Assembly (NCBI RefSeq): GCF_900143005.1
Contig: NZ_FRCS01000009.1
Coordinates: forward strand, 124,001 to 188,000
Origin: Cryptosporangium aurantiacum
GTDB taxonomy: Bacteria; Actinomycetota; Actinomycetes; Mycobacteriales; Cryptosporangiaceae
Direction: 5' to 3'
Length of the DNA stretch: 64,000 bases
A program made the translations under genes and the position numbers. Shown here in pieces: positions 14,450 to 54,655 of the stretch; within the stretch, counting starts at the first letter, position 1, and each line of letters starts with the position of its first letter. The notes under the pieces were generated by a model. The model saw only the letters and a list, made by a program, of their open reading frames with translations, had not been told where the DNA came from and ran no database searches.

Positions 14450-15886
14450 ATGGAACTGCAGAACCTGGTCGACGGACGCTGGGCGGACGGAAAGGGGGAG
14501 GAGTTCACCTCCACGAACCCGTCGCGGCCCAGTGACGTCGTCGCGGTGGGTGCGCTGGCCGGGCCGGCCGAGGTCGACGAGGCGGTGGCCGCCGCCCGGC
14601 GCGCCCAGCCCGACTGGGCCCGCACCCCGCACCACGAGCGGGCCGCGATCCTTAGCAGGGCGGCCGCGCTGATCGACGCGTCGGCGGACGCGTGGGGCCA
14701 CGAGCTGGCCGCCGAGGAGGGCAAGACCCGCGCGGAAGGCGTGGGCGAGGCCCAGCGCGCCGCCCAGATCCTGCGCTACTACGCGGCCGAGGCCGACCAC
14801 GAGACCGGTCAGCTCTACGCGTCCCCGCGCCGGGGCGAGCAGATCCTCGTCACCCGCCGCGCGCTCGGCGTCGTCGGGATCATCACCCCGTTCAACTTCC
14901 CGATCGCGATCCCGGCCTGGAAGATCGCGCCGGCGCTCTCCTACGGCAACGCGGTCGTGTGGAAGCCCGCCAGCATCGTCCCGCTGCTCGCGATGCGGTT
15001 CGCGCAGGCGCTGCACGACGCCGGTGTGCCGCCGGGCGTCGTCAACATGGTCGTGGCGGACGGGCCTACCGGCGGTCACCTGGTCGACCACCCGGGTATC
15101 CACGCGGTGAGTTTCACCGGATCCACCGCGGTCGGGCAGGCGATCGCGGCGTCCTGCGCGGCCCGCGGCGTGCCGGTGCAGGCCGAGATGGGTGGGAAGA
15201 ACCCGGCGATCGTCCTGGACGACGCGGACCTCGACCTCGCCGTCGACCAGGTGCTGCTCGGCGCGTACCGGGCGACCGGGCAGAAGTGCACCGCGACGTC
15301 CCGGCTGATCCTCCAGGACGGCATCGCCGAGCCGTTCCTCGCCGCGTTCGCCCGACGGGCGTCTGAGCTGGTGGTGGGTGACGCGGTGGCGCCGGGTGTC
15401 CAGATGGGACCGCTGGTGAGCGCGGCCGCGCGGGACGAGGTGCAGCGGGGGATCGACACCGCGGTGCGGCAGGGGGCGAGGGTGCTGGCGGGAGGTTCCC
15501 CCTACGGTGGTGCGTTGGCGGACGGTTGGTTCGTGCCGCCGACCGTGCTCGACCTGCCCTCGACCACGCTGGACGTCTGGCGCGACGAGCTGTTCGGCCC
15601 GGTCGTGGGTGTGGTCCGCGCGCGGACGGCCGCGGAGGCGTTCGCTCTCGCGAACGACAGCGCGTTCGGCCTGTCGGCCTCGGTGTTCACCACCGACCTC
15701 GGCCGCGCCCTCGAATCCGTGGACGCTCTGGACGTCGGGCAGTTGCACGTGAACTCCGAGAGCGCGGGCGCCGACCCGCACGTGCCGTTCGGCGGCGCCA
15801 AGCGCAGCGGCTACGGGCCGAAGGAGCAGGGCCGCGCGGCGCGCGACTTCTACACCCACACCACGACCGTCTACCTGCGCGGATGA
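14450..15886 (+). CDS. NAD(P)-dependent semialdehyde dehydrogenase
   Basis: 478 residues, aldehyde dehydrogenase superfamily. The general base is E246 in VQAEMGGKNP and the nucleophile is C280 in GQKCTATSRL. The cofactor region ITPFNFPIAIPAWKIAPAL and the end PFGGAKRSGYGPKEQG, typical of semialdehyde dehydrogenases (GabD and ketoglutarate semialdehyde types), are present. From the operon I infer glutarate semialdehyde to glutarate; succinate semialdehyde is the alternative. It starts 13 bp behind gcdH after GGGAGAACG, and its stop overlaps the next start (ATGA). Confidence 0.87.
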   Translation: MELQNLVDGRWADGKGEEFTSTNPSRPSDVVAVGALAGPAEVDEAVAAARRAQPDWARTPHHERAAILSRAAALIDASADAWGHELAAEEGKTRAEGVGEAQRAAQILRYYAAEADHETGQLYASPRRGEQILVTRRALGVVGIITPFNFPIAIPAWKIAPALSYGNAVVWKPASIVPLLAMRFAQALHDAGVPPGVVNMVVADGPTGGHLVDHPGIHAVSFTGSTAVGQAIAASCAARGVPVQAEMGGKNPAIVLDDADLDLAVDQVLLGAYRATGQKCTATSRLILQDGIAEPFLAAFARRASELVVGDAVAPGVQMGPLVSAAARDEVQRGIDTAVRQGARVLAGGSPYGGALADGWFVPPTVLDLPSTTLDVWRDELFGPVVGVVRARTAAEAFALANDSAFGLSASVFTTDLGRALESVDALDVGQLHVNSESAGADPHVPFGGAKRSGYGPKEQGRAARDFYTHTTTVYLRG

Positions 15887-17004
15887 CCGGCGCGCTGGAC
15901 GGGCTGACGATCGTCGACTTCAGCCGGGTGCTGGCCGGGCCGTACGCGACGATGCTGCTCGGCGACCTCGGCGCGGACGTGATCAAGGTCGAGGCGCCGA
16001 CCGGTGACGACACCCGGGCCTGGGGCCCGCCGTTCGACGCGTCCGGCACCGCGACGTACTTCGCCGGGGTGAACCGCAACAAGACCGCGGTGAGCCTCGA
16101 CCTGCGCGCGCCGGACGGGCTGTCCGCGGCCCGCGGCCTGGTCGCCCGCGCCGACGTCGTCGTGGAGAACTTCCGGGCGGGGGCGATGGCCCGCCTGGGG
16201 CTCGGCCCGGAGACGCTGCGCCGGGACCGGCCGGACCTGGTGTACTGCGCGATCACCGGCTTCGGGAGCGGTTCTGCCCTACCCGGTTACGACCTGCTGG
16301 TGCAGGCCGTCGGCGGGCTGATGAGCATCACCGGGCCCGGGCCGGGGCAGCCGACGAAGGTCGGGGTCGCGCTGGTCGACGTGGTGACCGGGCTGCACGC
16401 CTCAGTCGGCATCCTCGCTGCGCTGCGGCACCGGGACCGGACCGGCGAGGGCCAGGTCGTCGAGGTGAACCTGCTCTCCAGCCTGCTGTCCGCGCTCACC
16501 AACCAGGCCGCCGGGTACCTGGGCGCGGGCGCGGTGCCGGGCCCGATGGGCAACCGGCACCCGAGCATCGCGCCGTACGAGGTGTTCGCGACCGCGGACC
16601 GGCCGCTGGCGCTCGCGGTCGGCAACGACCGCCAGTTCGCGGCGCTCGCGACCGTACTCGGCGTTCCCGGCCTGGCGACCGACGAGCGCTTCCGGACGAA
16701 CACGGACCGGGTCGCGCACCGGGCCGCGCTGTTCGACACGATCACCGCGGCGCTGGCCGGGCGCGGCGCGGAGGCGTGGTTCGAGGCGCTGACCGCGGCC
16801 GGCGTCCCGGCCGGGCCGATCAACGACGTCGCCGACGCGTTCGCGTTGGCGACCCGGCTCGGCCTGGAGCCGGCGGTGGCGGTGCCGGGCGCGGTGGCGC
16901 CCGGCGTGGCGAACCCGATCCGCCTGTCCGCCACCCCGGCGACGTACCGGCTGCCCCCGCCGCCGAGCCCGGTCCGCGCCCAGAGACGCGAAAGCGGGCT
17001 GTAA
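15883..17004 (+). CDS. CaiB/BaiF (class III) CoA-transferase, probably glutarate-activating
   Basis: 373 residues from an ATG overlapping the previous stop. It shows the family start LDGLTIVDFSRVLAGPYATMLLGDLGADVIKVE, the CoA-binding NRNKTAVSLDLR segment and the catalytic Asp in VALVDVVTG (D166). Class III transferases move CoA between carboxylates. The context and the human succinate-glutarate CoA-transferase of this family suggest glutarate to glutaryl-CoA for GcdH. The last residues (RRESGL) are encoded inside a palindromic element shared with another gene end in this window. Confidence 0.85.
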   Translation: MTGALDGLTIVDFSRVLAGPYATMLLGDLGADVIKVEAPTGDDTRAWGPPFDASGTATYFAGVNRNKTAVSLDLRAPDGLSAARGLVARADVVVENFRAGAMARLGLGPETLRRDRPDLVYCAITGFGSGSALPGYDLLVQAVGGLMSITGPGPGQPTKVGVALVDVVTGLHASVGILAALRHRDRTGEGQVVEVNLLSSLLSALTNQAAGYLGAGAVPGPMGNRHPSIAPYEVFATADRPLALAVGNDRQFAALATVLGVPGLATDERFRTNTDRVAHRAALFDTITAALAGRGAEAWFEALTAAGVPAGPINDVADAFALATRLGLEPAVAVPGAVAPGVANPIRLSATPATYRLPPPPSPVRAQRRESGL

Positions 17005-17031
17005 GCCGACGTTAGACCCCTGTTTCGCGTC
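16985..17031. terminator. Palindromic element at the end of the CoA-transferase gene
   Basis: The outer arms GACGCGAAA (16985-16993) and TTTCGCGTC (17023-17031) are perfect complements. Inside are a small GGCT-GTA-AGCC hairpin and the tract CGTTAGACCCC. It spans the CoA-transferase stop codon and faces the convergent acyl-CoA dehydrogenase gene, so a bidirectional terminator is likely. Position by position it is 35/47 identical to the element at 47703-47749, including the codons for RRE(S/T)GL and the stop. Confidence 0.7.
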
Positions 17032-17052
17032 AATCGTTGCGGCCGCCGTGCG

Positions 17053-18186
17053 CTACAGGCCGTAGGTTTTGCCGATGATGTCGCGTTGGATCTCGCTGGT
17101 GCCGCCGTAGACGGTGCTGATGACGCTCGCCCGCAGGATGTGCTCCATGTCGTACTCGGTGGCGTAGCCGTAGCCGCCCATCATCTGCATGCCTTCCAGC
17201 GCCATCGCCTTCGCGAACTCGGTGGCCTTGAGCTTCGCCATCGACGCCTCGCGCGGGAAGATCTTGCCGGGATTCGCGTCGACCAGCTCCGCCACCTGGT
17301 ACACGAGCAGCCGGACGCAGGTCAGCTCGGTGGCCAGGTCGGCGAGGCGGTGCCGCAGCGCCTGGAACGACCCGATCGGCCGCCCGAACTGCGTCCGCTG
17401 CGTGACGTAGGCGAGCGTGTCGTCGAACGCGCGTTGCGCGGTGCCGAGCATCAGCGCGGCGAGCACCAGCCGCTCGAAGTTCAGCCCGGCCATCAGCTGC
17501 CGCCAGCCGTTGCCGACCTCACCGACCACCGCGGAGTCCGGCAGCACGCAGTCGGTGAAGTACAGGTCGTTGACCTCGCGGCCGCCCATCGTCTCGATGC
17601 CGTGGATCGCCAGGCCGGGCGTGCCGGTCGGGACGTTGAACATCGTCAGGCCCTCGTGGCCGGAGCCGGACGTCCGCGCCACCAGCAGGATGTGGTCGGC
17701 GATGTGGGCGTTCGAGCACCACGTCTTCTGGCCGTTGATCACCCAGCCGTCGTCGCGCTTCTCGGCGCGGCAGGTCAGCGCCGCCACGTCGGACCCGGCG
17801 CCGGGCTCGGACATCGAGATCGACTCCACCGCGCCGTTCGCGATGCCGCCGAGGATCGTCTTCTTCTGCTCTTCGCTGCCGAAGCGCTCGTACGCGCCGG
17901 CCACGATGATCGACGTCGCGAAGCCGCCGATCGGCGCGAGCGACTTCGACGTCTCCTCCAGGAACAGGCAGAGGTCGACGGCGCCGCCCCCGGCGCCGCC
18001 GTACTCCTCCGGCAGGCCGGCGCCGAGGTAACCGAGCGCGGCCAGCTTGCCGTACAGCTCCGGGCTGTGCCGGCCACCGTCGGCCACGAGCGCGTCACGC
18101 TGCTCGCGGGTTCCGGCCTCGCGGCGGCAGAAGTCGGCGACCGCGGCGGCGAACGCGCGCTGCTCGTCGGTGAGGTCAGGCGTCAC
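17053..18186 (-). CDS. Acyl-CoA dehydrogenase
   Basis: 377 residues from GTG at 18186 with GGGAGGA upstream. A longer frame to 18309 would run into the divergent promoter and is not used. It has the FAD/acyl-CoA motifs SISMSEPGAGSDVAALT and INGQKTWCSNAH, then RTQFGRPIGSFQALRHRLAD. The end is VYGGTSEIQRDIIGK, where Gly replaces the Glu used as catalytic base in short-chain enzymes; the base may lie elsewhere, as in several actinobacterial FadE groups. It is divergent from an aldehyde dehydrogenase across a region with a motif repeated near the GntR gene. Confidence 0.88.
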   Translation of the reverse strand: MTPDLTDEQRAFAAAVADFCRREAGTREQRDALVADGGRHSPELYGKLAALGYLGAGLPEEYGGAGGGAVDLCLFLEETSKSLAPIGGFATSIIVAGAYERFGSEEQKKTILGGIANGAVESISMSEPGAGSDVAALTCRAEKRDDGWVINGQKTWCSNAHIADHILLVARTSGSGHEGLTMFNVPTGTPGLAIHGIETMGGREVNDLYFTDCVLPDSAVVGEVGNGWRQLMAGLNFERLVLAALMLGTAQRAFDDTLAYVTQRTQFGRPIGSFQALRHRLADLATELTCVRLLVYQVAELVDANPGKIFPREASMAKLKATEFAKAMALEGMQMMGGYGYATEYDMEHILRASVISTVYGGTSEIQRDIIGKTYGL

Positions 18187-44580: not shown

Positions 44581-45591
44581 TCACTCGAAGCGGGACGTTC
44601 GCCACCCCAGCGCCGGCGCGACGTGGTTCCGGACGTCGGAGAGGATCTGCAGGTAGTCCTCGTGGTCGAATTCGTACGGCAGTTCGATCCGGAATTCGGT
44701 GACGTCGTCGAGCGTCGGGTCGGCGGTCAGTTGCTCGAGGATTTGCTCGGACGGCCCGACCAGGTCACGGGCGAACAGGATGCGCTGGGGGCCGTTGGGG
44801 CCGAGCGTCCGTTCGTATCGGCTCTCGGCGTAGGCCCGGTAGCGTTTGCGCGCCGTGGCGTCCGCGCTGTCGAACGGGACCACGACGCGGCCGAGCGCGA
44901 CCCGCCCGGCGCGGGAACCGCGCCGGTAGGTGCGGATCAGCGCGCGCTGCGCGGTGACGAAGTCGTCGGTGCCCTCGCCGGTGATGACGTTGCCGGTGAG
45001 TAAGTGCAGGCCGGCGCCGCCGGCCCAGGCCGCCGACCGCCCGCTGCCCCCGCCGTACCAGAGGCGGTCGACCAGGCCGCGGCTGAACGGCTGGACCCGC
45101 GGCCGCTGCACGTTGCCGGGTGAGTGGATGACCGTGTCCTCGTCGCCGAGGAACGTGCCGCGCAGGTTGTCGGCGAGCCGGCTGATCCGGTTGTACGACA
45201 GGTCGTAGGTGCGCCAGTCGCCGTCGAACGCGAGCGGCCCGAGCAGGTCGACGTGCGGCGGCTGCCCGGCGCTGAACCCCACCTGGAGGCGGCCGCGGGA
45301 GAGGACGTCGGACGTGGCGAGGTCCTCGGCGAGCCGGAACGGGTTCTCGTAGCCGATCGGGATCACCGCGGAGCCGAGCTGGATCCGCTGGGTGCGCTGG
45401 CCCGCGGCGGCCAGGAAGACCGCGGCCGAACCGACGCCGTGTTCGAGGTGGCGCTGGCGGATCCAGGCGCCGTCGTAGCCGAGTTCCTCGCCGTACTCGA
45501 ACTGCCGGAGCGTGTCCTCCAGGCCGCGATACGGGTCGTCGTCGGGGTAGTTGCCGGGGGTGAGGAAGGCCAGGGTCCGGATCGACGGCAC
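44581..45591 (-). CDS. LLM-class flavin-dependent oxidoreductase
   Basis: 336 residues from GTG at 45591 with GGGAG upstream. The luciferase-like TIM-barrel pattern is seen in FEYGEELGYDGAWIRQRHLEHGVGSAAVFLAAAGQRTQRIQLGSAVIPIGYENPFRLAEDLATSDVLSRGRLQVGFSAG. F420- and FMN-dependent enzymes share this pattern and cannot be told apart here. It lies 13 bp after the antiporter start region on the same strand. A partial dyad (45612-45629) lies just upstream. The TesB gene is the next upstream minus-strand gene. Confidence 0.88.
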   Translation of the reverse strand: MPSIRTLAFLTPGNYPDDDPYRGLEDTLRQFEYGEELGYDGAWIRQRHLEHGVGSAAVFLAAAGQRTQRIQLGSAVIPIGYENPFRLAEDLATSDVLSRGRLQVGFSAGQPPHVDLLGPLAFDGDWRTYDLSYNRISRLADNLRGTFLGDEDTVIHSPGNVQRPRVQPFSRGLVDRLWYGGGSGRSAAWAGGAGLHLLTGNVITGEGTDDFVTAQRALIRTYRRGSRAGRVALGRVVVPFDSADATARKRYRAYAESRYERTLGPNGPQRILFARDLVGPSEQILEQLTADPTLDDVTEFRIELPYEFDHEDYLQILSDVRNHVAPALGWRTSRFE

Positions 45592-45611
45592 GGCAGCTCC
45601 CGCAGTGTGTT

Positions 45612-45629
45612 CTGTTCCTATCGGAATAG
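45612..45629. promoter_or_regulatory. Near-perfect dyad upstream of the LLM oxidoreductase gene
   Basis: The arms CTGTTCC (45612-45618) and GGAATAG (45623-45629) are complementary at 6 of 7 positions around TATC. The dyad sits 20 bp upstream of the oxidoreductase GTG, in an unusually AT-rich stretch, so it may be an operator or part of the promoter. Confidence 0.4.
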
Positions 45630-45633
45630 TAGG

Positions 45634-46533
45634 CTAATCCCGCGGGCTCAGGGGTTTGACCAGCCCCTCCTGGACGATCGTGGCGATCAGGCGACCGGTG
45701 GCGTCGAACATCCGGCCGCGGCACAGGCCACGGCCCTGGCCGGCCCAGTCCGACTCCATGTCGTAGAGCAGCCACTCGTCCGCCCGGACCGGCCCGTGGA
45801 ACCAGATCGCGTGGTCGAGGCTGGCCACCAGCAGGTTCCGGTCGCCGATCACGGCCCGGTGCGGGTAGACGGCGGTCGAGAGCAGGAACATGTCGGAGAA
45901 GTAGGCCAGCCCGCACGCGTGCGCGAGCGGGTTGTCGGGCAGCGGCTCGCGGATCCGCATCAGGACCTGCTGCCGCGACGGCGGCGCCTCGCCGCGCAGG
46001 ACGTAGTCGCGGGCGGGCCGCTCGACGAACCGGACCTCGACCGGCTTCGGCGCGATCCGCCGCGTGAACCATTCGCCGAGCCCGGCGTCGGCGCGGGCGA
46101 GCGTCTCCTCGACCGACTCGACCGCGTCGAAGTCCGGTACCGGGGAGGTGGCTTCCTGGTGCTCGAGCACCGGCCCGGACGCCGCGGCCGGCGCGAACGA
46201 GACCGTCAGCGCGAACACGTCGTGCGGCCCCTGCTTGCCCAGCACCTGCCGGACGGTCTGCGCGCGGCCGTCGCGCAGCGCGTCGACGTCGTACTCGATC
46301 GGTGCGTCCGGGTCGCCGGGGTGCAGGAAGTGGCCGTGCAGCGAGTGCGGCACCCGGCCGTCCGGTGCGGTGCGGCCGGCGGCGGCCAGCGCCTGAGCGA
46401 CCAGCTGACCACCGTAGACCCGCGGCCCCGAGGACCGGTCGGCCCCGGCGGCGACGTATCGTCCTGGGCCGGCGTCGGTGAGTTCCACGATCTCGGCCAG
46501 GCTGACCGGGGCCACCCGGGTTTCGCTGTGCAT
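45634..46533 (-). CDS. tesB: Acyl-CoA thioesterase II (TesB-type double hotdog)
   Basis: 299 residues from ATG at 46533; no strong ribosome site is seen. The N-terminal hotdog has RVYGGQLVAQALAAAGRTAPDGRVPHSLHGHFLHPGDP. The second has FLLSTAVYPHRAV, then ASLDHAIWFHGPVRADEWLLYDMES and GRGLCRGRMFDATGRLIATIVQEGL. The Asp (SLDHAIWFH), the Ser/Thr in the middle and the Gln (VQEGL) match the TesB catalytic set. It hydrolyses acyl-CoA thioesters. It is divergent from the DUF2293 gene. Confidence 0.92.
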   Translation of the reverse strand: MHSETRVAPVSLAEIVELTDAGPGRYVAAGADRSSGPRVYGGQLVAQALAAAGRTAPDGRVPHSLHGHFLHPGDPDAPIEYDVDALRDGRAQTVRQVLGKQGPHDVFALTVSFAPAAASGPVLEHQEATSPVPDFDAVESVEETLARADAGLGEWFTRRIAPKPVEVRFVERPARDYVLRGEAPPSRQQVLMRIREPLPDNPLAHACGLAYFSDMFLLSTAVYPHRAVIGDRNLLVASLDHAIWFHGPVRADEWLLYDMESDWAGQGRGLCRGRMFDATGRLIATIVQEGLVKPLSPRD

Positions 46534-46660
46534 CCGTCGACGTTCGCACATGGTCGGCGCCGGTGGGGCCGCTGTGAACGGCGTCACGAACGCGCGGCCC
46601 GGCGCCGCGTGCGCCTCGGCCTGGCGGGCGCGGCGGCGCCCGGCCCGGCAGAATGGCCGC

Positions 46661-47722
46661 GTGTCGAAACTGGAACGGCGGGTCGTCGCGGTCGCGGAGA
46701 GTGCACTGGCCACCCGGAAGGTGGTGTCCGCGGTCGACGTCCTGACCGGCCTGCGCTGGGTGCGCGTCGGCCAGGTCGACACCTGGCGGCAAGGCCGTTT
46801 GGACGCTCTGGAGGCCGCCACCGCGGTCGACGCCCGAAAGCTGGTCGACGCGGTGAGTCTTCTGCGGTCGTGGGCGGAGCAGAAAGGCCTGGTCGCCGGC
46901 GAGGCCTCGTACGTGGCGGCCAGCCGCGACCGGCGCGCGCTCCGGTTCACCCGCACCGGCGACGACGCGGTGGAGCAAGCGTTCCGAATCGAGTGGAGCG
47001 CCGCGGACCTGAGCGCCGCCCGGCGTCAGCGGCTCGCCGCGCGGCAGCAGGCGGTGCCGGACCTGGTCGTGCACGTCGCGACTGGCGTGTGGGTCTGCGA
47101 CGCCTGCGACGGGACCGCGCCGTACCAGGTCCCGGAGGGCGACGAGCGGCTCTGCCCGGGCTGCGCCGACCTGGATCACCTCGTGTTTCTGCCGGCGGGC
47201 AACGCCGCGCTGTCCCGCCGGGCGAAGAAGGAGAGCACGCTGTCCGCGATCGTCGTCCGCTACAACCGGAGGCGGAAGCGCTACGAGCGGCAGGGAATCC
47301 TGGTCGAGGAGGGCGCGCTCGCGCGCGCCGAGGAATCCTGCCTGGCCGACGAGGACGCGCGGGAACGCAGGCGGCAGCGCGACGAGGTCCGGCGGGACGC
47401 CGCCGACGTGGCGTACCAGGCGGCGCTGGCCGGGCGGATCACCGCGCTGTTCCCCGGTTGCTCCCCCGAGCGGGCGGACGCGATCGCGCGGCGCGCGGGG
47501 GAGCGCAGCAGCGGACGGGTCGGACGCTCGGCCGCGGCCAAGGCGCTCGACGAGCAGGCGGTGACGCTGGCCGTGGTCGCGTCGGTGCGGCACGAGGACA
47601 CCGAGTACGACGCGCTGCTGATGGCCGGCGTGCCGCGCCGCGAGGCCCGTGACCGCATCCGCACCCGCCTCGACGCCGTCCTCACCACCTGGCGCACCAA
47701 TCGACGCGAAACCGGCCTCTAA
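46661..47722 (+). CDS. DUF2293-family protein with a zinc-ribbon motif
   Basis: 353 residues from GTG at 46661. The middle has CDACDGTAPYQVPEGDERLCPGC, a likely zinc ribbon, followed by a basic coiled-coil region (RRKRYERQGILVEE, RERRRQRDEVRRDAA). The C-terminal DUF2293 part is ALAGRITALFPGCSPERADAIARRAGERSSGRVGRSAAAKALD. The function is unknown; nucleic-acid binding is plausible. Its final residues RRETGL are encoded in a palindromic element (47703-47749) shared with the CoA-transferase gene end. Confidence 0.83.
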   Translation: MSKLERRVVAVAESALATRKVVSAVDVLTGLRWVRVGQVDTWRQGRLDALEAATAVDARKLVDAVSLLRSWAEQKGLVAGEASYVAASRDRRALRFTRTGDDAVEQAFRIEWSAADLSAARRQRLAARQQAVPDLVVHVATGVWVCDACDGTAPYQVPEGDERLCPGCADLDHLVFLPAGNAALSRRAKKESTLSAIVVRYNRRRKRYERQGILVEEGALARAEESCLADEDARERRRQRDEVRRDAADVAYQAALAGRITALFPGCSPERADAIARRAGERSSGRVGRSAAAKALDEQAVTLAVVASVRHEDTEYDALLMAGVPRREARDRIRTRLDAVLTTWRTNRRETGL

Positions 47723-47749
47723 CGTCGCGTTAGAGGCCGGTTTCGCGTT
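47703..47749. terminator. Long perfect hairpin between convergent genes
   Basis: The 21-bp arms 47704-47724 and 47728-47748 are perfect complements with a 3-nt loop (TCG); the left arm starts ACGCGAAACC. It covers the DUF2293 stop codon and faces the monomeric Icd gene, so it should terminate both transcripts. It aligns without gaps to 16985-17031 (35/47 identical). The paired bases changed together in some positions here but not in the other copy. Confidence 0.85.
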
Positions 47750-47753
47750 CGGC

Positions 47754-50012
<2,259 letters not shown>

Positions 50013-54460: not shown

Positions 54461-54655
54461 CGCGACCCTCCGGTCCATCCCGACACGCATACGTGCAATC
54501 GACGCTCACTCTACGGGAGTCCACCAAGGACACCGCAGACGCGCAGGCATCACCATGCCGGAGCACCCCGCCCGCGAACGGAGGGTTGCCGGCCGGCAAG
54601 CCGGGGCTCTGCGTTGGCACTCGTGACCTCTGCGCAGGACCGCAACGGCTCCCGG

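Follow-up and report, generated by a model that had tools for sequence, protein, structure and literature searches.

REPs are dispersed palindromes that lie between convergent or unidirectional genes, near their 3' ends; they sometimes supply a stop codon or coding residues to a neighboring gene, and their families are species-specific (Di Nocera 2013, PMC3733652). The CGTC-tagged REPs, for which no dedicated transposase is described, have an unpaired terminal CGTC tag, a stem of 8–9 bp, a loop of 4–5 and a CCA tail, and they form homo- and heterodimers, including head-head dimers (PMC3733652). REPINs consist of two inverted arms in one hairpin, are extragenic, form a sequence population within a genome and owe their duplication to RAYT proteins (Bertels and Rainey 2011, PMC3116915; Park 2021, PMC8049555). 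The DNA uptake sequences of the Neisseriaceae come in species dialects and occur as inverted pairs at terminators (PMC3630211). The RepRanger survey table includes three actinomycete species, and the part of that paper used here makes no mention of Cryptosporangium (PMC12306157). In a search of open-licence papers we recognized none that treats the palindrome family described below. To our knowledge, whether hosts make use of REP-like palindromes, which are common, and how the uniformity of such families is kept up, are unsettled questions.

The family came to light as two copies in a 64,000-nucleotide window, the whole stretch of DNA analysed, from the 9.6-Mb genome of Cryptosporangium aurantiacum (G000). 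An earlier note on this DNA had paired the 47-bp sites at 16985–17031 and 47703–47749, and realignment confirmed the gapless match at 35 of 47 positions (38 of 47 with one site reverse-complemented); the next best other 47-mer within the window reaches 27 of 47. Element 1 (16977..17039, no strand assigned, 63 bp) has a 45-bp core at 16986–17030 with 9-bp flanks and is decayed, whereas element 2 (47695..47757, no strand assigned, 63 bp) has a near-perfect palindrome as its core, with 21 paired positions a side at 47704–47748; the note had described one perfect and one decayed copy. Both plus-strand genes do end inside the element, with TAA (17002–17004 and 47720–47722). The first is a CoA-transferase family III gene (15883..17004, plus strand; PF02515, with NCBIfam models below cut-off only) that ends RRESGL, and it converges on an acyl-CoA dehydrogenase-like gene (17053..18186, minus strand; all models below cut-off) whose stop lies 22 nt from the core. 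The second is a DUF2293 gene (46550..47722, plus strand; PF10056) that ends NRRETGL, and its convergent neighbor encodes a monomeric-type NADP isocitrate dehydrogenase (47754..49997, minus strand; TIGR00178, 1277 bits), with its stop 5 nt from the core. As RNA, the 63-bp unit of element 2 has a folding energy of -43.1 kcal/mol for one strand and -44.8 kcal/mol for the other, and none of 200 shuffles does as well. Element 1 alone is no striking hairpin, because 6 and 17 of 200 shuffles fold as well as its two strands do (-21.6 and -21.1 kcal/mol). An Rfam scan of the window found no match to either element at gathering score; its sole match was a SAM-IV riboswitch elsewhere (54497–54628, minus strand; RF00634, 49.1 bits).

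The pattern ACGCGAAA-N27..33-TTTCGCGT, run on both strands of the whole G000 genome, gave 20 matches per strand, and the reversed pattern, used as a control, gave none. Nineteen of the 20 look like one family, and the match at C6:463460 is unlike the others (C with a number denotes a contig, and L with a number an individual locus read in G000–G003 or in other genomes). R1, a covariance model built from the 19 G000 copies, returned 126 rows on both strands, or at least 65 places at E ≤ 1, and gave the window copies 55.3 bits (element 1) and 69.3 bits (element 2, which is L012). The proposal that a dispersed family of repeats, symmetric on the two strands, lies at the ends of genes held up, and the lack of further copies that its author had said would count against it was not what these counts showed. 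Site numbers for G000 and for three same-genus genomes (G001, G002 and G003) are both-strand rows halved and are lower bounds, because at most 150 first-look candidates per genome were scored. The 65 R1 places and C6:463460 make up 66 own places; G000 statistics were taken on 64 copies, leaving out L061 (a 33-bp match) and L065 (which is C6:463460). Genes were called with a purpose-written codon-usage script, the same one for elements and controls.

The repeating unit is about 63 bp long; between its conserved outer ends CGCGGATTGACG/CGTCAATCCGCG lies a 20-bp stem whose pairing is maintained by compensatory changes, in the layout CGCGGATTG-ACGCGAAACCGGCCTCTAAG-5 nt-mirror image. It can be read as two inverted 29-nt arms on either side of a 5-nt loop, and each arm combines a variable inner stem with CGCGGATTGACG as its conserved outer end. 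Conservation reaches 9 bp past the palindrome on each side (first 58 of the 66 places): of 116 flanks, 108 have C at -9, 84 have T at -2 and 88 have G at -1. Across the 64 G000 copies, 87.0% of cells in the 20-bp inner stem are paired, two-sided changes occur at 14 of its 20 pairs and one pair is split between CG (23 copies) and GC (23 copies); altered yet matching arms can be seen at L033, L034 and L055. Only 56.9% of cells are paired in the outer 9 bp, and because of this difference in pairing, together with the two-sided changes, the outer end looks conserved as sequence and the inner part as a hairpin. No shuffle out of 500 matched the percentage paired, the cells with a two-sided change or the covariation score of the whole structure, while the number of pairs with two-sided changes was matched by 10 of 500 and that of further pair types by 6 of 500. 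ACG/CGT is paired in 59, 63 and 57 of the 64 copies. By eye, the G000 places L092, L093, L095, L096, L097, L101 and L103 are asymmetric, a usual arm being joined to one that resembles ACGSGTTCTSGGGCTGTAAC, and several of the asymmetric places then carry CGGCGTCGAGCT or something similar.

Placement is strongly biased toward gene ends. Of the 64 G000 copies, 39 occupy convergent gaps and 24 tandem ones; none is in a divergent gap and one lies at a contig edge. The gaps of control stretches are convergent in 51 cases, tandem in 144 and divergent in 44 (binomial 4e-12 when tested on gap counts and 3e-23 on intergenic bases). Most of 41 G003 copies (23 convergent, 15 tandem, 1 divergent and 2 at a contig edge or without a second gene) and of 30 G001 copies (16 convergent, 5 tandem, 1 divergent and 8 at a contig edge or without a second gene) likewise lie in convergent or tandem gaps. 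In G000, 75 of 103 facing 3' ends lie within 30 nt of the element, at a median distance of 16 nt.

The earlier note had also claimed that the element supplies the same C-terminal residues to unrelated proteins, and this is true of the two window genes but not of the family in general, where most copies add none. Many G000 copies carry a TGA at the core edge (-2 to +1), and the TAA of the stem lies in the same reading frame. Among the 103 facing gene ends of the 64 G000 copies, 80 stop before the core, 17 at the edge TGA and six inside the core, and we reject the supply of a tail as a rule on that last count; in G003 the edge TGA serves as the stop for only 4 of the 61 gene ends that face an element. 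The six comprise L012, window copy 1, L049 and L060, which stop at the TAA position (the codon there reads TGA in L060), and L048 and L057, which stop elsewhere. The window genes end in RRE(S/T)GL because the edge TGA became AGA (16984–16986, plus strand) or CGA (47702–47704, plus strand), both Arg codons in frame with the respective TAA; once that TGA is lost, translation would run on through RRE(S/T)GL to the in-frame stop in the stem. The tails are a by-product of the element. Both lie beyond the Pfam domains, which end at residue 382 of 390 (DUF2293) and 360 of 373 (CoA_transf_3). A comparison with DUF2293 relatives, proposed in the note, agrees: among four relatives in other genera, L106 ends in SWRDG, L107 in RWRS and L109 in SWRPRAA, none in RRETGL, and at L108 no gene was called there. 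The gene at the solo arm L099 ends GRREAGL. The original sequence observation is sound, with two corrections: the conserved unit takes in a further 9 bp on either side of the palindrome, and most members of the family add no C-terminal tail.

Within the genus, R1 alone found few places in G001–G003, where weak matches exposed other inner stems. With a model from 8 G001 copies (R2), G001 has at least 53 sites (106 rows, E ≤ 0.1), and with a model from 13 G003 copies (R3), G003 has at least 62 (124 rows, E ≤ 0.01); G002 has about 2 sites among the candidates scored (4 rows, E ≤ 0.01). One of these, at C1:6062062-6062126 (L235) in a one-contig genome, may be a relic or a founder. The arm consensus is CGCggatTGACGCGAAACCGGcCTCTAAG in G000, CGCggATTtACGCCGAATCCGCCTCCACG in G003 and CGCGGATTGACGggAAAtCGGGGTTccgg in G001. 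Protein identity to G000 over 19 anchors is 0.915 for G003, 0.860 for G002 and 0.849 for G001. Outside the genus, R1 gave 1–2 rows in 6 other genomes among 60 relatives, and the four of those places that were read (L088–L091) have no outer ends. When R2 was run on 298 genomes of the order, with 17 candidates scored per genome, 14 genomes from other genera showed at least 1–4 rows each. Full-length R2 matches of 46–48 bits occur in other families of the order (G278 C4:5534116, G016 C349:18018, G247 C2:15963, G188 C1:2915894 and others) and are possibly distant relatives or look-alike hairpins. Among the candidates scored, many copies are seen only in this genus. Another palindrome family, a small one whose arms read TGCGTTTCGGC...GCCGAAACGCA, is present in G003 (C66:50014-50047, within L183; C17:485907-485940; and L173) and in G001 (C34:2512-2545), and its exact pattern has no match in G000 or G002. 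L183 and L173 are the orthologues of the G000 ends L013 and L002, which bear the main family.

Thirty-six own sites were queried with anchor pieces, and the orthologous ends could be read for 24 in G003, 20 in G002 and 22 in G001. An element was found at 10 of 24 ends in G003 and 2 of 22 in G001, counts that include 4 and 2 ends, respectively, chosen earlier since a model already matched there, and at 0 of 20 in G002; 14 of 24 own sites are without an element in G003. The sites shared with G003 are L004, L005, L008, L012, L018, L019, L020 (weak), L021, L023 and L025, to which L028 and L036 were later added; the end orthologous to element 2 (L182) bears an element of the G003 type. Weak model matches were left out of the shared count: L015 in G003 (L185, R3 E 0.0023), L026 in G003 (L192; R2 E 0.0005, R1 0.02) and L022 in G002 (L211, R1 E 0.0018). 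In a wider set, which includes ends judged among the matches listed and L028 and L036 as read by sequence, sharing is 12 of 34 with G003 against 2 of 31 with G001 (Fisher p 0.006), and this greater sharing with the nearer relative favors descent of the sites. Judged against conserved flanking DNA, position agrees best at L021 and L005; independent insertion may have occurred at some shared ends, because L012 and L019 are shifted by tens of bases.

The inner stem follows the species, not the site. Nine shared G000/G003 pairs have an inner-stem identity of 0.575, against 0.562 for non-orthologous pairs between the two species, whereas identity is 0.745 within G000 and 0.813 within G003; shared pairs are therefore no more alike than random cross-species pairs, which is concerted evolution of the elements, seen here in nine pairs. 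The test used 64 G000, 41 G003 and 30 G001 copies (the last including tandem arrays) and 9 of the 12 shared pairs, L005, L018 and L020 being left out since the G003 copy lacks flanks or has altered ones, and finding copies with species-trained models favors those that resemble their own genome's consensus. Two exceptions resemble their G003 partner, L021 (0.79) and L023 (0.68); at L021 the loop is nearly unchanged between the species and the stem differs in the species direction. G001 stands at 0.484 to G000 and 0.434 to G003, and its internal identity is just 0.568 because unlike subfamilies coexist there. Mutual information between stem sites at least 4 apart reveals linked changes in G001 (8.24 against a null of 2.75, sd 0.46) and G003 (2.74 against 1.37, sd 0.25), and only weakly in G000 (1.95 against 1.46, null maximum 2.26). 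G001 also has arrays: on C39 (L153, 3494-4955) four elements are spaced 486, 489 and 423 bp apart with no called genes there, the first two units being alike by eye, and on C20 (L154, 2757-3075) three elements lie about 128 bp apart. The linked changes and the G001 arrays suggest copying within the genome.

We consider it somewhat probable that these are REP/REPIN-like extragenic palindromes that serve as a bidirectional 3'-end hairpin and are kept uniform by copying or conversion. RNA from either strand would form a strong hairpin just past the stop codon, and the element would therefore suit convergent genes; the hairpin would end transcription or protect the 3' end. Uniformity within a genome could arise through copying, with new copies replacing old ones, or through conversion between copies, and an element would be retained where a 3'-end hairpin is harmless or helpful. 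Location, symmetry and compensatory changes all fit the bidirectional terminator that the earlier note had proposed, but there is no T-tract: no T-tract or terminator was called for element 2 (positions 45001–50000 of the window), and by eye the aligned family copies are likewise without one. Another strong hairpin is present at 17 of 53 orthologous ends without the element, hardly more often than the 19 of 76 for convergent ends used as controls, and such ends thus show no obvious need of a terminator.

The note's word mobile fares similarly: the subfamilies and concerted evolution suggest copying, but we found no consistent target duplication, clean insertion boundary or transposase. This bears on the possibility that the family is a miniature non-autonomous transposon or a REPIN-like selfish element, whose outer 12 bp would be recognized by a putative transposase and for which gene ends are merely tolerated. 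The conserved ends, dozens of copies and subfamilies are what such an element would leave, as are the sites that sister species do not share (14 of 24 with G003) and the near absence of the family from G002. Exact 4- to 9-mers adjoining the 63-bp unit were, however, found in 0 of 135 copies (shuffled mean 1.06 at 4), and five other assumed boundaries gave small excesses only, e.g., 5-mers two bases further out in 2 copies against 0.58. The Y1 transposase/RAYT domain PF01797 was absent from all four genomes (G000–G003), with a control positive in 5 of 14, and we reject a RAYT-driven REPIN on this ground. At 14 solo-arm places read in G000 among the matches listed, no transposon or other autonomous partner was seen between two arms. 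A location strictly at 3' ends, together with pairing kept by compensatory changes, suggests, moreover, that the hairpin is also used. We regard an element of this kind as possible but doubtful.

There is also a bolder reading. A set of inherited gene-end sites may have been rewritten in place, in concert, as the species diverged, with the dialect set by a putative trans-acting factor or conversion machinery for which the conserved outer 12 bp would be the recognition site. We think this unlikely; if true, it would be directly observable concerted evolution of dozens of dispersed bacterial 3'-end elements without a RAYT. A related suggestion, which we rate as quite improbable, is that the elements are bound by a host protein, a factor for termination, the nucleoid or DNA uptake; its specificity would have shifted from one species to another and selection would have rewritten the sites in place, much as in DNA uptake sequence dialects. 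Inner stems that differ by species at the same gene ends are in its favor, as are the nearly constant loop and species-directed stem differences at L021 and, by eye, the roughly helical spacing of about 9–10 bp between the first conserved blocks; against it, quite different inner stems stand side by side in G001, G002 nearly does without the family and the factor is only putative. That ordinary terminators, each an A-run, a GC stem and a T-run, have merely converged on one look is a very remote prospect, for although AAA...TTT around a GC stem also marks hairpins taken as unrelated (C6:463460, L192, L211), bases outside the stem are conserved in the family and the other convergent-gap hairpins of G000 are unlike each other, with hairpins in 12 of 48 gaps (12 control stretches and the window) and the window copy the sole family member among them.

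In this genus a given gene end can be followed through sister species that carry an element there, lack one or have it in another dialect, so that copying, conversion and co-evolution can be told apart. If the terminator role holds, the elements could also offer bidirectional 3'-end parts for GC-rich bacteria.

Among known systems, DNA uptake sequences are the nearest parallel we found for the species versions, since they too are a repeated sequence with species dialects. They are far more numerous per genome than tens, whereas the present elements number tens of copies per genome and were always searched for as a palindrome. Intrinsic terminators likewise place a hairpin directly past the stop codon, and between convergent genes such a hairpin can work either way; the defining pair of GC hairpin and T-tract is not seen in element 2, which has no T-tract beyond the stem, and here sequence is shared beyond the stem. 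The 135 copies show no consistent target-site duplication of the sort expected of a MITE. Like REPINs, the elements have inverted arms in one hairpin, are extragenic and form a common type with variants, but REPINs are duplicated by RAYT, and with no Y1 transposase domain in G000–G003 the family lies outside the REPIN definition. It also lies outside that of the CGTC-tagged REPs, in which the stem is 8–9 bp and the tag unpaired; here there is one 63-bp palindrome with two 29-nt arms and a 20-bp stem, and across the 64 copies ACG/CGT is usually paired. In the broad sense, however, the likeness to REPs is extensive: many dispersed extragenic palindromes, mostly in convergent or unidirectional gaps near 3' ends, which at times supply a stop codon or residues, exist in species-specific versions and have no transposase that we could find. 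The G000 places with two unlike arms (L092, L095, L096, L103 and others) recall REP heterodimers. An inner stem that changes by species at shared sites may also set the present family apart from REPs. Because it resembles REPs yet falls outside both the CGTC and the REPIN definitions, we place it with the REP kind: the family is a variant of that kind, and concerted evolution at shared gene ends is its notable feature.
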